Assembly: GCA_003833135.1 (NCBI GenBank)
Contig: QZLH01000230.1
Location: 60,078-124,077 of the forward strand
Direction of reading: 5' to 3'
Source of the DNA: Oehlia diaphana
Taxonomy: Eukaryota > Glomeromycota > Glomeromycetes > Glomerales > Glomeraceae
DNA: 64,000 nucleotides
Shown here: piece by piece, positions 43,021 to 56,522 of the stretch
Layout: each line of letters starts with the position of its first letter
How positions within the stretch are numbered: the stretch's first letter is position 1
Notes under the pieces: generated by a model
What the model saw: only the letters and a program-made list of their open reading frames with translations
Told to the model about the DNA's origin: nothing
Databases searched by the model: none
Program-made: the position numbers and the translations under genes

Positions 43021-43921
43021 AGGGCTCCGATCGGTATCGGTAAATACCGAACTGAACCGATCAGTTTCGATATCGGATCGGTTTCAGTTTTGCAATTTAC
43101 CGAAACTGAACCATTCGGTAAATTATCGATCGGTTTCGGTAACTGCGGTTTTGGTATCGGTTTTGCAATTTACTGAACCGATTTACCGAAGTTAAAAAAT
43201 GTTGCGAAACGTTTTTTAACATGTAAAATTAATAAATAAAAAAACGTTTCGCAACATTTTTTTATCAAAATAGTTAAAAAACGTTGCAGAACGTTTTTAA
43301 CATGTATAAAAAAACGTTTTGCAACATTTTTTTATTGAAACTGTTAAAAAACGTTTCGAAACATTTTTTAACATGTAATTTGATAATAAAAAACATTTTT
43401 CGCAACGTTTTTAATTATTTGAACAAAAAACGTTGCGAAATGTTTTTTATTAATAATTTTATAAAAAAACGTTTTTCGCAAACGTTTTTAATTGTTTTAA
43501 TAAAAAACGTTGCGAAAACGTTATTTATCAAGTAATTTAATAATAAAAAACGTTTCACAACGTTTTTTAATTGTTTTAACAAAAAATGTTATGAAACCGT
43601 TTTTTTTATTAAATTGCTTAATAAAAAACGTTTTCACAACATTTTTTTAATTCTTTTAATAGAAAACGTTGCGAAAATGTTTTTTATTAATAATTTCACA
43701 TTTTCGCACATTTTTTTAATAAATAATGTTGCGAAAACATTAAAAATCGAACCGATAATGAATTGGTAAATCGGTTCAGTTTTCGGTAATTACTGGTCGG
43801 TTTCAGTACTGATGATTATCAAAACTGATCGGTTTCGGTAATTAACAATACCGTTACCGATCAATTCAGTTCGGTTTTGGTTTTGGCAAAAACCGTACCG
43901 AACCGAACTGATCGGAGCCCT
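43021..43921. mobile_element. Foldback element, 901 bp, 10 bp target duplication
   Basis: The element begins AGGGCTCCGATCGG and ends with CTGATCGGAGCCCT, its inverse. It is flanked on both sides by the identical 10-mer AGGTACACCT (43011-43020 and 43922-43931). The outer arms of about 170 bp are rich in CGGTTCGG/CCGAAC words. The inside is a run of roughly a dozen degenerate units built on AAAAACGTTGCGAAACGTTT and its inverse, so the whole element can fold on itself. A 9-11 bp duplication is typical of Mutator-like elements; the class assignment is inference. No ORF of note. Confidence 0.88.
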
Positions 43922-47066: not shown

Positions 47067-47987
47067 CCAGAAAAACTTTGGGCTAAGACACGGGCAGAAG
47101 AGTATGATATTGATATTTCTGATGTTACAGAATGGTTGCATAAACAGGCTGTATGGTAAATACACTCCACAGGTTTCTTTTAATAAAATTACATGATCAA
47201 ATATGTATCATCAGGTGGATATCTTATATATGCCCCATGATACTGTAGGTAGAAAGCTATATAAGTTCTGCCTAAATATTGTAGATGTTGCTAGCCATTA
47301 TAAAGCTTCTGTACCTTTAGAGAATTGCAGCTCTGCGCATGTTGCTAAGGCATTTAAAATGATTTATAATAAAGCGGGTTGTTTACTTATTTGGCCAAAA
47401 GTTCTACAGGTAGATGGCAGATCAGAATTTAAAGATGAAGTTATGCAGCTAATGGGTAAAAAAATGTACGCATTTGGGTAAGTACTACTCATAAAAATCA
47501 GGCTATCGTTGAACGATATAATCGAACTTTAGCAGAGAGGCTTTTTAAAATACAGGATGCAAAGGAACTCTTTATAGAAGGTGTGAATACTGCCTGGGTT
47601 GAGAAACTTTCTGATATTGTAAATGAGTTAAATAATTCCAACACTCGTCTGCTAGGTATGCCGCCAGTTAAGGCAATTCAGAAAGATCAGGTATATGCAC
47701 TACCCTCAAAGATTCGCAAAGATAGACTAGTGGGTATAAATAAAACATGGTTACCCGCAGGTTCTTCTGTTAGATATTTACTTGATAGCTCAGATTATAG
47801 AGGTAGAAGGTGCGCTACAGATCCAATATGGTCTACTAAAATTTTTACAATTGAATCTTCGACGGTTATTGATGGGCAGCCGGTTATGTATCAGTTGACA
47901 AATGGACCTAAAAAATACTTTATTCGTGAAGAATTATTAGTTGTGCCATCTGATACTATGCTACCTCCTACTTATATATTATATTAA
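47067..47987 (+). pseudogene. Polinton/Maverick-type integrase, frameshifted
   Basis: A retroviral-type DDE integrase remnant. The N-terminal part (PEKLWAKTRAEEYDIDIS, VTEWLHKQAVW) ends at a stop near 47157. The catalytic core is in another frame from 47203: YHQVDILYMPHD (first Asp), LNIVDVASHYKASVPL, VLQVDGRSEFKDEV (second Asp). After a frameshift near 47469 comes THKNQAIVERYNRTLAERLF (catalytic Glu), continuing to 47987 with a chromodomain-free tail (KKYFIREELLVVP). The sequence type, together with the neighbouring protein-primed polymerase, matches Polinton integrases rather than LTR retrotransposons. Its stop overlaps the stop of the polymerase remnant on the other strand. Confidence 0.82.
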
Positions 47988-48881
47988 TTTTCAAGTTGTG
48001 GTATCCTATAGTCTCTATGCGCATACATTGTAATATTATCTTGCGCAATCCATTTTTTATTATCCATAGGGGATAATCCAACTTTTGACATTTCTATAAC
48101 ATTTATGGCATGCTTGTCAGATCGGATTGCTCTAAAGGTAACTGTATCATTATGCTTAGGATCAAAGAGTGCCTTATTATGTCGTTCATAGTGGAACTCT
48201 TTCTTAATCACTTTTGAGGGGACACCTTTAGCTTTACGGATTCTATATTTTGGATTGGTAATTTCATCTCCTACCTTGAGGATGGAGTACATCTTAGGAC
48301 GGAGGCTGATAAATTCCGCAATTATTGCGCCATTGCATTCATCCTTAAATTTACCTGAAATTTTCATATTTATGTCGGCCTTATCACCTAATGCTTTTTG
48401 TACAGTGTGATCCTTAGGATAATCACTGAAGTCGAATTGGTCTGCCATATCTATGAGATCCGCATTGATATCCTCAGTTTGGATTTGTACAAGAAGTGAG
48501 TCTGTATCTGTATAACATAGCTGGATTTTTTCTCCATATCGTACCTTAAAAGTATCATAGTAGAATTGATACACGCAGAGCTTTGAAAGGTCAAGTACAC
48601 TCATACCCATATATGTTGGACGGTTAAGCATTACCTCCACTTTTCGTCGATGGATTGCAACAAGATTTTCTGAGAATATTTTACGTCCCTTAAATGCGGG
48701 ATCTGAGGTAAGCTTTTTATATTTCTTGGAGTGGATTTGGGGTTATACTACTAAGACACGTACACGCTTTCTGAGATTTTCCATAGTTTTACCAAATACA
48801 CTATTATTCATGAGTTTATAAAAGTCCTTCTTAAAATCGTTCTTAGCCTTAGTACGTTCGATGGTGTTGAATTCTATATAT
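47984..48881 (-). pseudogene. Protein-primed DNA polymerase B, C-terminal part
   Basis: C-terminal third of a DNA_pol_B_2 polymerase. From 48881 it reads [20 protein letters not shown], then [19 protein letters not shown] (motif B, K...NSxYG type), one in-frame stop near 48743, RPTYMGMSVLDLSKLCVYQF, then CYTDTDSLL (motif C, the catalytic YxDTDS) and a thumb region ending at 47984. It is cut off upstream by element A at 48882; the rest of the gene continues at 55396. Polintons carry this polymerase. The stop means it is not functional. Confidence 0.85.
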
Positions 48882-49199
48882 GGGGTCTGTGCTAGGAAAA
48901 TAAGGCTTAGAGTCATTTTTTATCAAAATTGAGATTTTTGATTTATTTTAATCTGCAGTATATAAAGAACATTTGGTTTAAATTTTATAGTACGTTGTCT
49001 TATGATTAAAATGAGCAATCGGGGTTTAAAAAATTTCAATTTTTTGTGTAATGATCAGCCATAAAATCTAAAATTAGATCCAGAAATGATCAACACAATG
49101 TCACATGATTTTATTAATGTCATGTATTACTAGATTTTCCAGACTTGAAATTCGCGAAAAAGGTAGATTTTTTTTTTTTTGCATATTTTTTTACTTTAA

Positions 49200-49710
49200 G
49201 ATATTACTAACTCTTCCTTTTTTTTTCTTTAAGATGCTTCCTGGACTTGAACTTTGGCCTTTAGATAATAGACTTTGAAAAATAGTAAGTTGGAAGGGCC
49301 AAATGGAAATATTTTTTTTTATTTTGGAAACATTGCTAAACGTCCTTTTCTTTTTTTTAGGATGTCTCCCAAATTTGGATTTCAGCCTCTTGAATAATGA
49401 CTTTGGAAAATGGTAAATTGGGGAAATGTTTTTTTGTTTCAAAAATATTACTAATGTTCCCTTTTCTTTTTTCTTTTTAGGATACTTTCTGGACTTGACT
49501 TTGGCTTCTTGAACAATGGGCTTTAGAAATCAGTTAATTGTAAGAGCCAAAGTGAATTTTTTTTTTATTTGAAAATGATACTAACATTTCCTTTCTGTTT
49601 TTTTCTTTAAGATCCTAACTTTAGAAATGGTAAATTGATATTTTTGATTTGGGAATATTACCAACATTTCCTTTTTTTGGAAGGATCCTATACTTGGACT
49701 TTAACCAGAT
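49200..49710. repeat. Subterminal tandem repeats, left side of element A
   Basis: Four to five degenerate units of about 120-128 bp (the last shorter). Each contains a poly(T)/CTTTTT tract followed by aaGATnCTtnCTGGACTTGaa-like sequence (49230, 49358, 49480, 49608, 49681) and TGGTAAATTG-like words. Non-coding. Confidence 0.7.
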
Positions 49711-51259
49711 ATTAATATTCCAAACTATGCCAAAACTATGCTAGTTTTGGCAAGTTTCACAATTTTGCAGTTTCGGAAAATTTATTTACTTTATAATTTT
49801 AATTTAAAAGCTTAATTTTTTTTATTTAATAAAGAAATAAGACATAAATGTATTAAAGATAATAATTATCTTTATGTGAGTCTTCTACATGTTGGCGAAT
49901 TTTTTGATATAAATATTTTTTTCTTTCATCAGACATAGGCATAATATCTAAAACATTTAATTTTTCATTTTTATCAAAATTATTATTATCACGTAAAAGC
50001 TTGTGACAAATTTCATCTCCACCAGATTTTTCAGAACAATAAACTTTTCCTAAATCTTGTAGCAAACTACTAAAACAAAAATGATGATATTTTGTTATAT
50101 TAGGTAAATTTATAAAATTTTTGTTTGAAAAAATTTTTTGAAAATTAAACCACTTCTATTCAATCCCACCATTGTATCTAATTCCTTCATTACCTTTTGA
50201 TGATTTATTTACAATTTCTTCAATATCATCAATAGTATTAACTTTGTTATTTTGGTAAATTATTTTTATTTGTCCAAAAAATGAATTACAAATAAATTTT
50301 GTATGACCTGGTACCATAAAATTAATGGTAATATTATCATACCAACCTAATATACACAACCAAGACCAAAAAAAAAGTGATAAATTATTAATATTTAAAT
50401 TTTTTTTTCCTTCTTTAGCAAATATTTTAATTGCTTGATAAACCATATTTAATGTTGTATTAGCTCCTTTTGCAACACCTTTAGGAAATTCATTTTCTCC
50501 AATAACAAAATTTATTTGTTTATTTTCTCCTTCAGTTTTGCAAACACCAAATAAATGAACAGCATAAGCTGTTTTAAAATAAATTGATCCAACTTGTTGT
50601 GGTGAATATGGAACAGTTACATTTTGTGCCCAATCATAACAAATATGTGCTATAGATAACTCATGTTTACTTTTTTCAATATTATTATTATAATGTTGTC
50701 GTTCAAGATCAGCTTTTTCTTGATGTTCTTCAAATTGGTTTTTTATAATATTAAATTTATCAATATCACTTTTTGCTATTCGCATTTTTGCTTTGAATTC
50801 TTCACATGTTTCACAAAGATCAGATGCAGGAGATTGAAATTTAAGATTAGGCATTAATTCATGCCAAAGTCTACGAAATGTACTATAAGAAATAATATTT
50901 TCATTTTCACCATGTTCAAGACAATAATATTCTTTGTATTTATTATATATCGAAGTATAATTTTCATTAGTTGGAAGATATATAAAATTTCCAGAATCAT
51001 TTCGATGTCTCATAGGAGATGGTAAACCATGAATAGTTCCATACTGTGTTAAAAATTCTTTAACAGAAGATGCTATATTAAAATCAACAAAAACTCTTGA
51101 ATTTCATCTTGAAACATATCTGGTGTTACCATAAGTACGTTCAGTTAATCCATTTTCTTGAAGATGGGTTTGTAATACTGATAGCTTATAGTCACTTAAA
51201 TTGCATAATTTCAAGTATGCAGGCTTACAAAGTGGTAAGGATATATTAAAACTATATTT

Positions 51260-53870
51260 GGGGACGCGGCTAGAAAAAGCCGGGGTTCGGACCGATCACG
51301 TGATTTTGAGATTTTTTAATTATCATATGCTCATGAGTCTAACCATTTGGAAAATTAATTTTTCCATATATAATATAATAATAGAAAAGGCGTAAATATT
51401 TACAATTCTTGCAGTCTTTTATTTTAAAAATAAACGCATTTTTTTGACTTTTATTTTTAATAAATTATATGGAATATGGTATTAACTTTGATAATGATAA
51501 TGCAAATAATAATATTTTATCTGCTTTAGCAGAACTGAATAACACTTTTTTTATTGAAAACAATTCAAGTTCTGATGAAAAAAGTATATCGGATGATGAA
51601 GTTATTTCTAATTTTGACGATATTGAGGATGATACTCAAAGTCTTGTAGAAAATTTTAATGAAATGCGTATAAATAACCTTGAGTTTGTGGAAAATTCTG
51701 ATAGCTATATCGAAGATAAAGTTTATGATGATATAAAATTAAAAATAAAAGAATTTTTTGATAAAGGAAAATGCACATGTAACCCTAAGTGTTTTGAGAA
51801 AATTGGATATGAGAGGTTTCTTGCACGTCGAATGGAATTTGAAGGTTTAGATAAAAATGCACGGGATATGGTTATTAAAGGCCAATTAATAGCATTTCAA
51901 CAAGATGAAAATACAAAAAAAAAAACTGCCAATAATAGAAAAATTTTCCGTTTCAAATATTGTTTTAACAACAGCACTCCTATTTGTCGTGGCACATACC
52001 AAGCACTTGTTGGTGTTGGTCATACATATTTAGATAATATAATAAAACATCTACGAGAATATGGTCTTGAAGAACGTATACATGGTAATACTGGCAAAAT
52101 CCCAAATAATAAGAATCGTGTTGAAGTAAATTATGATATAGCGTGTGAAATTCATAACTTCCTGAAAAATTACTCTGATATACATGGTTTACCTTCACCC
52201 GGGCGGAGTCTTAATAAAATAACCATGCCAGTGGTATTTCTTCCAACAAATTGTAGTTATGTATCAGTATATCGCGATTATATTCAAGCTTATAAAGAAA
52301 AACATGGAGAAGAAAAATGTGTTGTATCAGAAACAACTTTTAGAAGGACCTGGAAATCTTTAATGCCATCACTCCAGTTTATGTCTCCGAAGTCTGATTT
52401 ATGTGAAATATGTGAAACAATGAAATTAGAAATTCAACATATTACAGAACATGAAAAGAAAATATCAGCCACTGAGAATTTTTTGGCTCATTTGGATCGT
52501 GCAAAACAAGAACGTAATTGTTATAATACTAATATTAAGCGCGCAGTTGAAGATGGAAAAAGAAACCCAAATAAAACTAAAACTCAAATATCATTTAAAA
52601 GTTTTGAAGGGAGTGCTCACATTACATACGATTGGGCCCAGAATGTCCATGTTCCTTACTCTCCACAACAAGTAGGAACATTATTTTTTAAAAGTCCTCG
52701 AAAAGTTCATTTGTTTGGAGTTTGTAATACTGGAAACTTCCCTCACACAGAACAAACAAATTATGTTATTGATGAAGGTGAAATGCCTGATGATGGTAAA
52801 CTGGGGAAGGGAGTAAATTGTACAATTAGTCTGGTTTGGCATGCTATCCAGAAATATAATCATGGAGAAAGAAAATTAATAATCACATGTGACAACTGTG
52901 TAGGCCAAAATAAGAATAATTACTTTTTATTTTTTTATTCTTGGCTAATTGATCGTGGCATGTATGAAGAAGTTGAGATGAATTTTATGATACCAGGTCA
53001 TACCAAGTTTATTTGTGACAGTTGTTTTGGCCTAATTAAGATTTTTTATCGGAAAAGTAAAATCAATACTGTGGATGATGTGGTTTCCATTGTCAATAAT
53101 TCTACTACAGTTCATCTTAATACTTCTCAACGCTACCTAAATGGAGAAGGGTTTCAGTATTATAATTTTAAAGATTATTTTCAAAAGTTCAAAAAAATTC
53201 CTAATATTCAAAAATATCATCACTTTTATTTTACTTCACAGCGTCCCGGGGTTGTTTTCTATAAGGATAGACTTGAAGATAGTTATAAAGAGACTACAGT
53301 TCGTAATTTTTCCTTTAATTTCAATATCCAACCTTCTATAATTAACACTAGGCCACTTTCTTTGAAAAGACAAGAGGAATTATATAAGGAGATCGCACCT
53401 TATGTTGATTTACCGTTTCGCAATATTACTTGTCCTAAGCCAAACGAACAGTAATAAGTTAGACTAAATTTATTGTAAATAGGTTCAAAACTTTGCGATA
53501 TTACTAAATAAAATGAGCTTATTTTTTGTCTACTTACTGCTGTTGGGTGGCCATTGCATTTTTATTATTTTTTTTATATTTCGAAAGTTGAAATCTCGGG
53601 TAAATAAAGCTTTTTAAAAAATATATCATTAACTTTTATTGAAATATGCATTATAAAATTTAATGATTTAAATTAAATAAATCTAATGTAATGAAGTCTA
53701 AGGTTTTCAATTAAATTCCTGTGAAATTTCGACCATAGTTATTAAGACCGTTTTCAAAAAAAAACAATTTTTTTTCGCAATGATCGTCAAATTTGATTAC
53801 GTAATTTAAACCTCGATTTTCTCGAAAACACGTTATCGGCCGAACCCCGGCTTTTTCTAGCCGCGTCCCC
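51260..53870 (+). mobile_element. DNA transposon B, 2611 bp, apparently complete
   Basis: Terminal inverted repeats start GGGGACGCGGCTAGAAAAAG and continue CCGGGGTTCGG, identical for 31 bp at both ends, then ACCGATCACGTG against CCGATAACGTG, so about 42 bp in all. The flanking duplication is ATTT (51256-51259 and 53871-53874). It inserted into the transposase-like gene of element A; removing it plus one ATTT restores that frame (2615 bp shift agrees). It holds one long ORF. Near-identical ends and an intact ORF suggest recent insertion. Confidence 0.93.
51469..53454 (+). CDS. Putative transposase, DDE/D-like, intact
   Basis: A single 661-residue ORF inside element B. The N-terminal 90 residues are acidic and Asn/Ser-rich. 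A cysteine-bearing segment (KCTCNPKCFEKIGYERFLAR, residues about 101-120) follows, then a helical DNA-binding-like part (YLDNIIKHLREYGLEERIHG). The core has SDLCEICETMK, YDWAQNVHVPYSPQQVGTLF (Asp388), ITCDNCVGQNKNNYF (Asp475) and MIPGHTKFICDSCFGLIKIF (Asp517). The three aspartates sit in an order suggesting an RNase H-like catalytic triad; that is inference. The family is widespread in eukaryotes as uncharacterised proteins; I associate the core with Pfam DUF7869, name to be checked. The start is the first ATG after the left terminal repeat. Confidence 0.85.
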   Translation: MEYGINFDNDNANNNILSALAELNNTFFIENNSSSDEKSISDDEVISNFDDIEDDTQSLVENFNEMRINNLEFVENSDSYIEDKVYDDIKLKIKEFFDKGKCTCNPKCFEKIGYERFLARRMEFEGLDKNARDMVIKGQLIAFQQDENTKKKTANNRKIFRFKYCFNNSTPICRGTYQALVGVGHTYLDNIIKHLREYGLEERIHGNTGKIPNNKNRVEVNYDIACEIHNFLKNYSDIHGLPSPGRSLNKITMPVVFLPTNCSYVSVYRDYIQAYKEKHGEEKCVVSETTFRRTWKSLMPSLQFMSPKSDLCEICETMKLEIQHITEHEKKISATENFLAHLDRAKQERNCYNTNIKRAVEDGKRNPNKTKTQISFKSFEGSAHITYDWAQNVHVPYSPQQVGTLFFKSPRKVHLFGVCNTGNFPHTEQTNYVIDEGEMPDDGKLGKGVNCTISLVWHAIQKYNHGERKLIITCDNCVGQNKNNYFLFFYSWLIDRGMYEEVEMNFMIPGHTKFICDSCFGLIKIFYRKSKINTVDDVVSIVNNSTTVHLNTSQRYLNGEGFQYYNFKDYFQKFKKIPNIQKYHHFYFTSQRPGVVFYKDRLEDSYKETTVRNFSFNFNIQPSIINTRPLSLKRQEELYKEIAPYVDLPFRNITCPKPNEQ

Positions 53871-54299
53871 ATTTATATGAATGGCGTGTTTTTTTCTCTG
53901 TTTCATTTTTTTCAATTTTTTCATTTGAAATTTCAAAGGACATTAATTGAGTTTTTATAAACAGTTCAAATTCAGACTTTCCAAGTGCTTTTATCTCCAT
54001 GTGTCTTTCAAAAAAATGCTTAAATCCTACTTTTTCAAAGCAAGTTCTTATATCTTTTTTATTCCTAAAGCGTCGGCAAGTACAATTTGCAGAATTATTA
54101 AAAAATGTCATTAAGTTATGTACTACATCAAGTACCATCTCATTTTCTTCATACTTTTCCAATCCTAATTCAATAAAATTGTAAATAGGTCTTGCTTCAG
54201 AACTCATTATTTTGAATTTTTTTGATAGATATAGTAAAATTTTTAATGATTTAAAAGAAAAAAAACCCCGCCATAATTAATAAAAAATACCACAAGATT

Positions 54300-54560
54300 T
54301 TTATAACGATTTTTATTAAAAACCCTTTAAAATAATTAAAGTAACGATTTTTACTAAAAAACCCCTTTAAAATAATTAAAGTAACAACTTTTATTAAAAA
54401 AAAATAAAAAGAATATAAAAAAAGAAAGAATTTTCATTCCTTTTTAATTACCCGCCCCTTTAATTTTTAAAAAATCCTTTAAAACAATTAAAGTAACGAT
54501 TTTTATTAAAAAAAAAATAGAAAGAATATAAAAAAGAAAAAATTTTCATTCTTTCCGCCC
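54300..54560. repeat. Short degenerate repeats in element A
   Basis: The phrase AACGATTTTTATTAAAAA followed by CCTTTAAAATAATTAAAGT recurs four times (54307, 54342, 54382, 54495 approximately), with intervening AAAGAATATAAAAA words. Low complexity, non-coding. Confidence 0.6.
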
Positions 54561-54739
54561 TTTTTAATTATCCGCTAACTTTAGATAAAAAGAATGAAAC
54601 ATCAATACCATTTCTATCCCTTTTAATTACTTTTCAAAGCTAGTCTCAAGTCTACTTATAAAAAAAAAAGAAATAAAATGTTAATATTGTCCCCATTAAA
54701 AAAACACACTTCCTCTTTAATTACCTTTTAAACATTAGT

Positions 54740-55110
54740 TCTTTCCCTTCTTTTCTTTAGGTCCAAAGGCTACATTTTGAAAAGAAAAGGTTAGTATTTC
54801 TCTTTAACAAATTCATTGCTATGTGCCGCATACTACCTCCATTTTGTTTAACTTACCTTCTTGTTTTTAAGTCCAGAAGCTACACTGCAAAAAGAAAGGT
54901 TTGTATTTTTTTTAATAAGCCACCATATCAATTTCATTAATTTTATTTAAATTACTTCTATTTTTCTTAGATTCGAAGATTACAATTAAAAAAAATAATT
55001 TTTTTATTTTATTTTTTTAGCAAATCTACTGCCACGTATCACACAACTTCCATTTCGCCTAACTTGCCTTCTTTGTTCTTCAAGTTCAAAGGTTATACTT
55101 TGAAAAATAC
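54740..55110. repeat. Subterminal tandem repeats, right side of element A
   Basis: Three to four degenerate units of about 105-125 bp containing TTTTAAGTCCAGAAGCTACA-like sequence followed by an A-rich tract (54759, 54867, 54968, 55079). Read in inverse orientation the unit resembles the left-side array (AAGTCCAGGAAGCATC), so the two arrays form imperfect inverted subterminal repeats. Confidence 0.6.
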
Positions 55111-55395
55111 TTTAGACCATTTCAAACTAAGTACAAAAAAAGAAAAGCTTAAACGGCAAATATTTAAAGTTAAAAATTTTTGTGTAACAATATCTTGGAG
55201 GGTCAAATTGCTAGCAAAATGTTCGGTAATACAGTAATACAATAATTAAATCACGTGAAGTAGATCATCATACCTAAAATTAGTAACATTTTTTATTGGT
55301 CAAAAATCACTGGATTGTGTAATGTTTATGTTGATCATTGTTTATTTCAAAATTGTACTAGCCTCCCGTATCACTATTTTCCTAGAACAGATCCC

Positions 55396-56522
55396 ATATG
55401 GTTTCATCCATGGAGCCTGCTCGAACTTTATAGCTTCGTAAACTTTCTTGATTACTAAGCCTTGGTTAACATAATACTGGAGATTTCTGTAATGGACTAC
55501 ATATTCATCCTTATCAAATAGGTTAGAAATAAGCTTATCTGTGGGTGTATATTATTGTTCTGAGCATGCTATTATTTCCCACTGCTTTTTACTAAGCCAT
55601 TCCTTCTTGACCTTCATTTGTTCTGGCGTGAGAGGATAATCTGTGTGTTATGAATGAAAGGCTTGGGGATATTCCAGTTTGACTTTAAGGATATATCCCT
55701 CAGAAGAATCATCTGGTATTTCATTATTCTCTATTTGCCTTTGGATGGCAGTTAACTCATCCCTCTCCTTTATCCAGCAGAAATTACTTGTAGGTAAGTA
55801 TTGCAACATGGCCCATCCATATAGGTTATTTGCATCTAAGTATAGGATAGATGACTTGGGCTTATCTGCTATCCATCCTCCTTTCATATCCGGATTGTTT
55901 GCACGAGCATATCATTTACTTACCATAGAGATTCCACCACGTAATCCTTGTTTTACCATCATATACATGTCCTGATCAGTTATAAGATGTAATTTTTGCC
56001 CTGTCATGAAGAATAGTGCATCCTATGCGAAGCCTGGTGTTGAGTAATACCAGAGAGAATCTAACCCATATTTTTTTAAGCCGTTTCTCAGAAATTTTGG
56101 AATATATCGGCTAGTAGGAGGACGTCAGTTTTGAGATAAATATTATGATAATCGCGCATTGTTTTACATCCTGCTTTTTTCCATACATACTGTGCATATT
56201 CGTATTCTTTATCACTAATGTGAGTTTCATTAAGTTTGCTATAGAATGCTCCTTTAGGTGGTAAACTAGTTTTCTCGAACTTATTCCAATCATTCATATA
56301 TTCATACAGATAGACACCTTTCTTAAGATAAATCTTGAGTAATTTGGGTGGTATTTGTCTTTGTATTATCTTAAAGTTTTCAGGATGTGTGAAACATCTA
56401 CCTCAATTCGCCATAAATGTTGTGGGTTACTACATTTTTGTGTTCTACATTTTTCTGCACCTAAGTTGGATGCTAATTTGTTGAGATTTGATTTCATAAA
56501 TTGTAAGCTATCTATAAATCAA
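55396..56522 (-). pseudogene. Protein-primed DNA polymerase B, central part
   Basis: Continuation of the polymerase upstream of element A, read right to left. It begins with FIDSLQFMKSNLNKLASNLG (exonuclease region) near 56515-56455, then KKGVYLYEYMNDWNKFEKTS, LPPKGAFYSKLNETHISD, CKTMRDYHNIYLKTDVLLLA (exonuclease III-type motif with Asp), TPGFAWDALFFMTG, ILYLDANNLYGWAMLQYLP (motif A), EGYILKVKLEYP, and VYEAIKFEQAPWMKPY at the break. Several frame changes and stops show decay. The protein-primed (DNA_pol_B_2) type is shown by these conserved blocks. Confidence 0.85.

Follow-up and report, generated by a model that had tools for sequence, protein, structure and literature searches.

A nested DUF7869 transposon in Oehlia diaphana, probably of Sola2 type, with relatives in bacteria

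The inner element and its gene

The DNA analysed here (the window) is a 64,000-nucleotide stretch of contig QZLH01000230.1 of the fungus Oehlia diaphana (GenBank assembly GCA_003833135.1, positions 60,078 to 124,077 of the forward strand). It holds a complete DNA transposon, called the inner element below, with a single gene whose product carries the Pfam domain DUF7869. The features of the inner element are as follows.

51260..53870, plus strand: complete inner DNA transposon, 2611 bp; a second, identical copy lies at G000:C16:113559-116169
51260..51290, plus strand: left terminal inverted repeat (TIR), 31 bp, perfect
53840..53870, minus strand: right TIR, pairing with the left TIR
51256..51259, no strand: left copy of the ATTT target duplication
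53871..53874, no strand: right copy of the ATTT target duplication
51469..53454, plus strand: intact transposase open reading frame (ORF), 661 amino acids; RNase H catalytic core at about residues 379-528, with D388, D475 and D517

The TIRs start with GGGGACGCGGCTAG and stay imperfectly similar out to about 52 bp (92%). No other perfect inverted repeat in the 64-kb window reaches 20 bp with its arms kilobases apart (distances up to 8 kb). The ORF of 661 codons is free of stops and is the only one of at least 100 amino acids between the ends. A Pfam search with its product returned PF25273 (DUF7869; E=2e-23) as the sole family above its cut-off.

The inner element interrupts a gene on the minus strand. 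Once the element and one ATTT are deleted, the host frame reopens across the junction; if both copies of ATTT are retained, the frame closes at once. A preliminary description, made from the letters alone, had proposed an apparently intact DNA transposon with inverted repeats perfect over 31 bp, a 4-bp duplication proven by frame restoration, and a 661-residue ORF with three conserved aspartates. Its coordinates were correct and all of these features are present. It was silent on one point: the interrupted gene itself belongs to a transposon, which has TIRs and an ATAT duplication of its own.

Copies and relatives in the assembly

The assembly (108.8 Mb, 1672 contigs) was searched for other copies with the same ends, a check that the preliminary description had proposed, and such copies were found. 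The copy on C16 is identical across all 2611 bp, lies in the opposite orientation and has ATAT on both sides. Compared over 1500 bases on each side, the DNA around one identical copy does not match that around the other. Six further ends belonging to this family stop at assembly gaps (C200, C577, C706, C1257) or where a contig ends (C871, C1279). Recent mobility is evident from these six ends and from the identical copy in unrelated surroundings. Contig C428 carries an element-free paralogue of the C16 site; about 22 bases are missing at its junction, so it documents the insertion and not the duplication.

Two more distant relatives are complete. The C154 relative is about 77% identical, measures 3174 bp and has both ends, ATAT flanks and two stops. 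Compared with it, the ORF gives a nonsynonymous divergence (dN) of 0.17 and a synonymous divergence (dS) of 0.80. The ratio of 0.21 indicates that the protein was under constraint, that is, purifying selection. The C457 relative (G000:C457:36010-41899; L066/L068/L069) measures 5890 bp, with the TIR GGGCGCTTTGCAGTAAAAAG, perfect GGGCGC ends, ATAT flanks and 30-44% protein identity by segment. Its coding sequence is in pieces, possibly split by introns, and no element-free paralogue of its site was found. For relatives on C1292, C104, C1031, C254, C1011 and C124, no ends were found in the stretches examined.

Target choice is narrow. The tetramer AWWT adjoins all 10 ends of the family and 9 of the 10 ends of relatives (19/20 fungal ends); of all tetramers in the window it accounts for 6.5%.

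Predicted fold of the DUF7869 protein

The three aspartates D388, D475 and D517 are invariant across the 17 rows of alignment A1, and D388 is at least 90% conserved in wider sets. In an AlphaFold model they take catalytic positions in an RNase H core. When the domain model was compared with known structures, all 50 among the matches listed were DDE/D transposases or integrases. Searches by sequence gave nothing below E=0.85 in PDB; three proteins were searched in NCBIfam, and no match fell under E=0.09. As modelled, the protein combines the RNase H-like core and the acidic triad that define RNase H-fold DDE/D enzymes in general. The earlier expectation of an RNase H fold agrees with the model. 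The link proposed between this protein family and transposition, with DUF7869 as a likely transposase, also stands.

Relatives in bacteria

Protein searches gave 58 matches at E <= 1e-3, 126 at E <= 1e-6 (best 120 of 126 examined) and 775 at E <= 1e-5 (best 120 of 775 examined). In the searches at E <= 1e-3 and E <= 1e-6, the organism-named matches listed came from fungi that we take to be Glomeromycotina, Rhizophagus being closest among the matches listed, so that by its matches the genome would most likely be that of a Rhizophagus-like fungus. Four were organism-named among the matches listed at E <= 1e-5, all bacterial: Candidatus Thiomargarita nelsonii, Beggiatoa sp. PS, a Desulfobacteraceae metagenome-assembled genome (MAG) and a Planctomycetota MAG. 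The sources name DUF7869 proteins "hypothetical" or "DUF7869 domain-containing". A literature search for the motif GQNKN returned only papers that, as listed, are unrelated.

A scan of GTDB contigs yielded 13 loci, including one of Desulfocicer vacuolatum DSM 3385 on a 147-kb contig; most of the others are MAG contigs, where misbinning is possible. Seven of the 13 have paired GGG(G) termini, one end of L075 reading GGCGG. AWWT adjoins 13 of the 14 ends of these seven elements. Two single ends (L076 AATT, L097 ATAT) were excluded from this count, as the search pattern itself required AWWT; with them the count is 15/16. No convincing end pair was found at L077, L079, L081, L082 and L096, and L076 and L084 lay outside the pair scan. 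A script rechecked 24 of the 36 listed ends against the DNA, and ATATGGGG and AAATGGGG were located in L078 and L080 without automatic comparison.

The bacterial elements (Candidatus Thiomargarita nelsonii, Desulfocicer vacuolatum, Legionellales, Desulfobacterales and other MAGs) carry one gene of about 570-670 amino acids, whose product is about 30% identical to the fungal transposase. They are like the fungal elements in their termini and their choice of target. They differ in that the flanking tetramers are equal in only three of seven (AATT, AAAT, ATTT), and in being rare among the genomes searched. A Pfam-model survey of the phylum of Desulfocicer found a DUF7869 element in 1 of 395 genomes, Desulfocicer itself. 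An alignment survey of two orders gave 3 of 42 and 10 of 291 genomes, centres and weak partial matches included. Two scans of viral contigs found no relative, nor did plasmids yield one with one DNA and one protein query. We know of no named insertion sequence family for these elements, ISfinder not having been searched. The genome paper on Thiomargarita nelsonii gives its transposase families as Pfam numbers, and in the available text DUF7869 is not one of them (PMC4853749); the Pfam entry may postdate that publication.

A quickly built, unrooted tree sets the nine rows assigned to Glomeromycotina apart from the bacterial and metagenomic rows (SH-aLRT 100), and so gives no sign of recent transfer. 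L083 and L084 were dropped from it for having more than four stops, and the stop in L081 was written as X. The long branch of P0121 is unreliable; P0043 was put among the Glomeromycotina by similarity. Relatives with the same kind of ends in bacteria suggest one transposition system across domains.

The outer element and its surroundings

The inner element lies nested within the older element that it interrupts, whose DUF7869 gene it splits.

48882..55395, minus strand: outer, older DUF7869 element, 6514 bp including the inner element; imperfect TIR GGGGTCTGTGCTAGGAAAATA / GGGATCTGTTCTAGGAAAATA
48878..48881, no strand: left copy of the ATAT target duplication of the outer element
55396..55399, no strand: right copy of the ATAT target duplication of the outer element
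50156..51255, minus strand: 3' part of the outer DUF7869 gene; stops present, second Asp motif (DNCxGQNKN) gone
53857..54207, minus strand: 5' part of the outer DUF7869 gene, with the bounds of the ORF finder; the gene's own part ends at 53871, where the insertion starts

The outer element is dead, since its second catalytic motif is lost and its gene has stops. It in turn splits decayed pieces at 47987-48880 and 55402-55899 on the minus strand, resembling a Polinton DNA polymerase B. We take the interrupted gene to be such a polymerase from its motifs; in Pfam the pieces have only a sub-threshold match (PF03175, E=0.012). Translated separately, the two halves lie in codon phases 0 and 1, and deleting 6514+4 bases (2 mod 3) puts both in the same phase, an agreement expected by chance in one of three cases. 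Because the reading frames agree, both nested insertions fit a 4-bp duplication, the inner case being decisive.

Elsewhere in the window, 11414-38560 holds ordinary fungal genes (Golgi pH regulator/ABA_GPCR, Sec39/Nbas, Man1-Src1-like, Pex24p, bestrophin), and a perfect 20-bp hairpin, AAAAAATGTTGCGAAACGTT, lies at 43194-43262.

Proposed mechanism and alternatives

We consider the inner element to be, probably, a Sola-type DNA transposon that moves by cut-and-paste, was active recently and is apparently autonomous; within Sola, Sola2 is the most likely group. Its single gene would encode a DDD transposase in which the DUF7869 domain forms the RNase H fold with the triad D388-D475-D517. Binding of the TIRs and of metal probably falls to the N-terminal helical and Cys/His regions. 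The transposase would recognise the 5'-GGGG ends and excise the element, which would then be joined to target DNA cut with a 4-bp stagger at AWWT, in most cases ATAT. Gap filling by host repair would leave the 4-bp duplication.

Several observations weigh against this reading or parts of it. Flanking tetramers are equal in five of six complete fungal elements, a rate biased by scans that favoured equal tetramers (C154 and C16 came from a scan demanding equality, C457 from one allowing one difference). The exception is a 428-bp miniature inverted-repeat transposable element on C37 (L057), whose ends, GAGG/GGGG, are related and whose flanks read GTAT/ATAT. Of the five fungal duplications that are exact, four are ambiguous against symmetrical ends, because ATAT is its own reverse complement; the ATTT insertion and the two frame tests separate a true duplication from symmetrical ends. 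Four of the seven bacterial elements (L072, L074, L078, L080) have unequal tetramers, all but one of which fit AWWT. Recombination between copies or mutation are our guesses at the cause. The triad has exceptions, with Asn at the first Asp in the metagenome relative P0051 and at the third in the C457 relative. Foldseek with the full model gave no match at E <= 0.001, and its best rows (Argonaute PIWI, UvrC, terminase and EndoV, which we take to be RNase H-like) were mixed with the unrelated acetyl-CoA carboxylase and hexokinase. Finally, the assignment to Sola2 is drawn from shared features, not from alignment with a reference Sola2 protein.

In a different placement, the DUF7869 elements would be a superfamily apart from Sola1-3 and would share 4-bp AWWT duplications by convergence. 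DUF7869 was not found in the literature searched, Pfam keeps the family as a DUF, and a published introduction that lists eukaryote-prokaryote transposon pairs holds no such pair (PMC10045372). Against this, the DDD triad, the 4-bp AWWT duplications, the size, the TIRs and the presence in bacteria fit the available descriptions of Sola and Sola2, and Rhizophagus irregularis is reported to have Sola-2 families (PMC11075540). We regard a separate superfamily as unlikely, though worth keeping in view. Its fuller form, with members in bacteria and eukaryotes, conserved GGG termini and AWWT choice, and with the bacterial members as an unnamed insertion sequence family, seems to us similarly doubtful.

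Two other explanations concern the element itself. The ORF could be a passenger or domesticated gene moved by another transposase, DUF7869 then not being a transposase. Cleavage, excision and end binding by the DUF7869 protein are what we infer, and other transposable element families are presumably abundant in such genomes. This is nevertheless very improbable: the ORF is the sole one of at least 100 amino acids between the ends, its RNase H core is of the integrase type and holds a conserved DDD triad, and GGG termini enclose a DUF7869 gene in five fungal copies and at seven bacterial loci. Even less credible is that the TIRs and duplication reflect chance or segmental duplication. AT-rich tetramers do match by chance more often in an AT-rich genome; equal tetramers are nonetheless expected at 0.8% per locus, the inverted repeat is 31 bp, perfect and GC-rich, and the frame is restored when one ATTT goes with the element but stays broken when both remain. 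The two identical copies have mutually unmatched flanks, those of C16 showing no homology over 1500 bases per side, and the inverted repeat is the only one of its kind in the window; a chance repeat and a segmental duplication were therefore both rejected.

A Sola-type transposon remains the explanation that we prefer. Pfam DUF7869 gains an assignment at the level of mechanism, as the likely catalytic part of DDD transposases that act by cut-and-paste, in fungi and bacteria. DUF7869 genes are worth checking as transposon-derived in annotation, lone copies being candidates for domestication. The identical copy pair is ready material for an activity test.

Comparison with known systems

The families that duplicate other targets differ in the length and letters of the duplication. 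PiggyBac and Kolobok elements duplicate TTAA, and were set aside with duplications here reading ATTT, ATAT and AAAT. Families with 2-bp TA and 3-bp duplications were excluded on both length and letters: Tc1/mariner duplicates TA (2 bp) and Zator/ISAzo13 3 bp in the available descriptions (PMC10045372), as against 4 bp by frame here. The mariner/Mos1 transposase and retroviral integrases gave no significant PDB sequence match, and mariner duplications are 2-bp TA. Over the region of the second and third Asp, the 661-residue protein has a sub-threshold Pfam match to PF07592 of Zator/ISAzo13; a link to ISAzo13, for which this match (E=0.059) is the sole basis, was rejected.

Sola elements are described as having DDD transposases, 4-bp duplications, TIRs of 11-1124 bp and lengths mostly of 2-9 kb, and as occurring in bacteria and metazoans (PMC10741241). 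The elements described here likewise occur in bacteria and eukaryotes, and the inner element, with its 31-bp TIRs and 2611-bp length, falls within these ranges; its DDD triad, as described for Sola, is placed in the RNase H core. The 4-bp duplication is seen in the inner frame test, the outer codon phase and the equal tetramers (5/6). Sola2 of dictyostelids duplicates AWWT, for example ATAT, AAAT and ATTT (PMC3627910), the consensus seen at 19/20 fungal ends. In the same description dictyostelid Sola2 has an 888-residue transposase, TIRs of 12-21 bp and Fanzor partners, in contrast to 661 residues, 31 bp and no partner here. Novel Sola-2 families are also present in a curated Rhizophagus irregularis library (PMC11075540). 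In the light of the available text of these three papers, the claim of a possibly undescribed superfamily lacks support and is weaker than it looked. Set against the descriptions of Sola2, not a reference protein, the inner element is by its features likely of Sola2 type, and most likely represents a new family within it.
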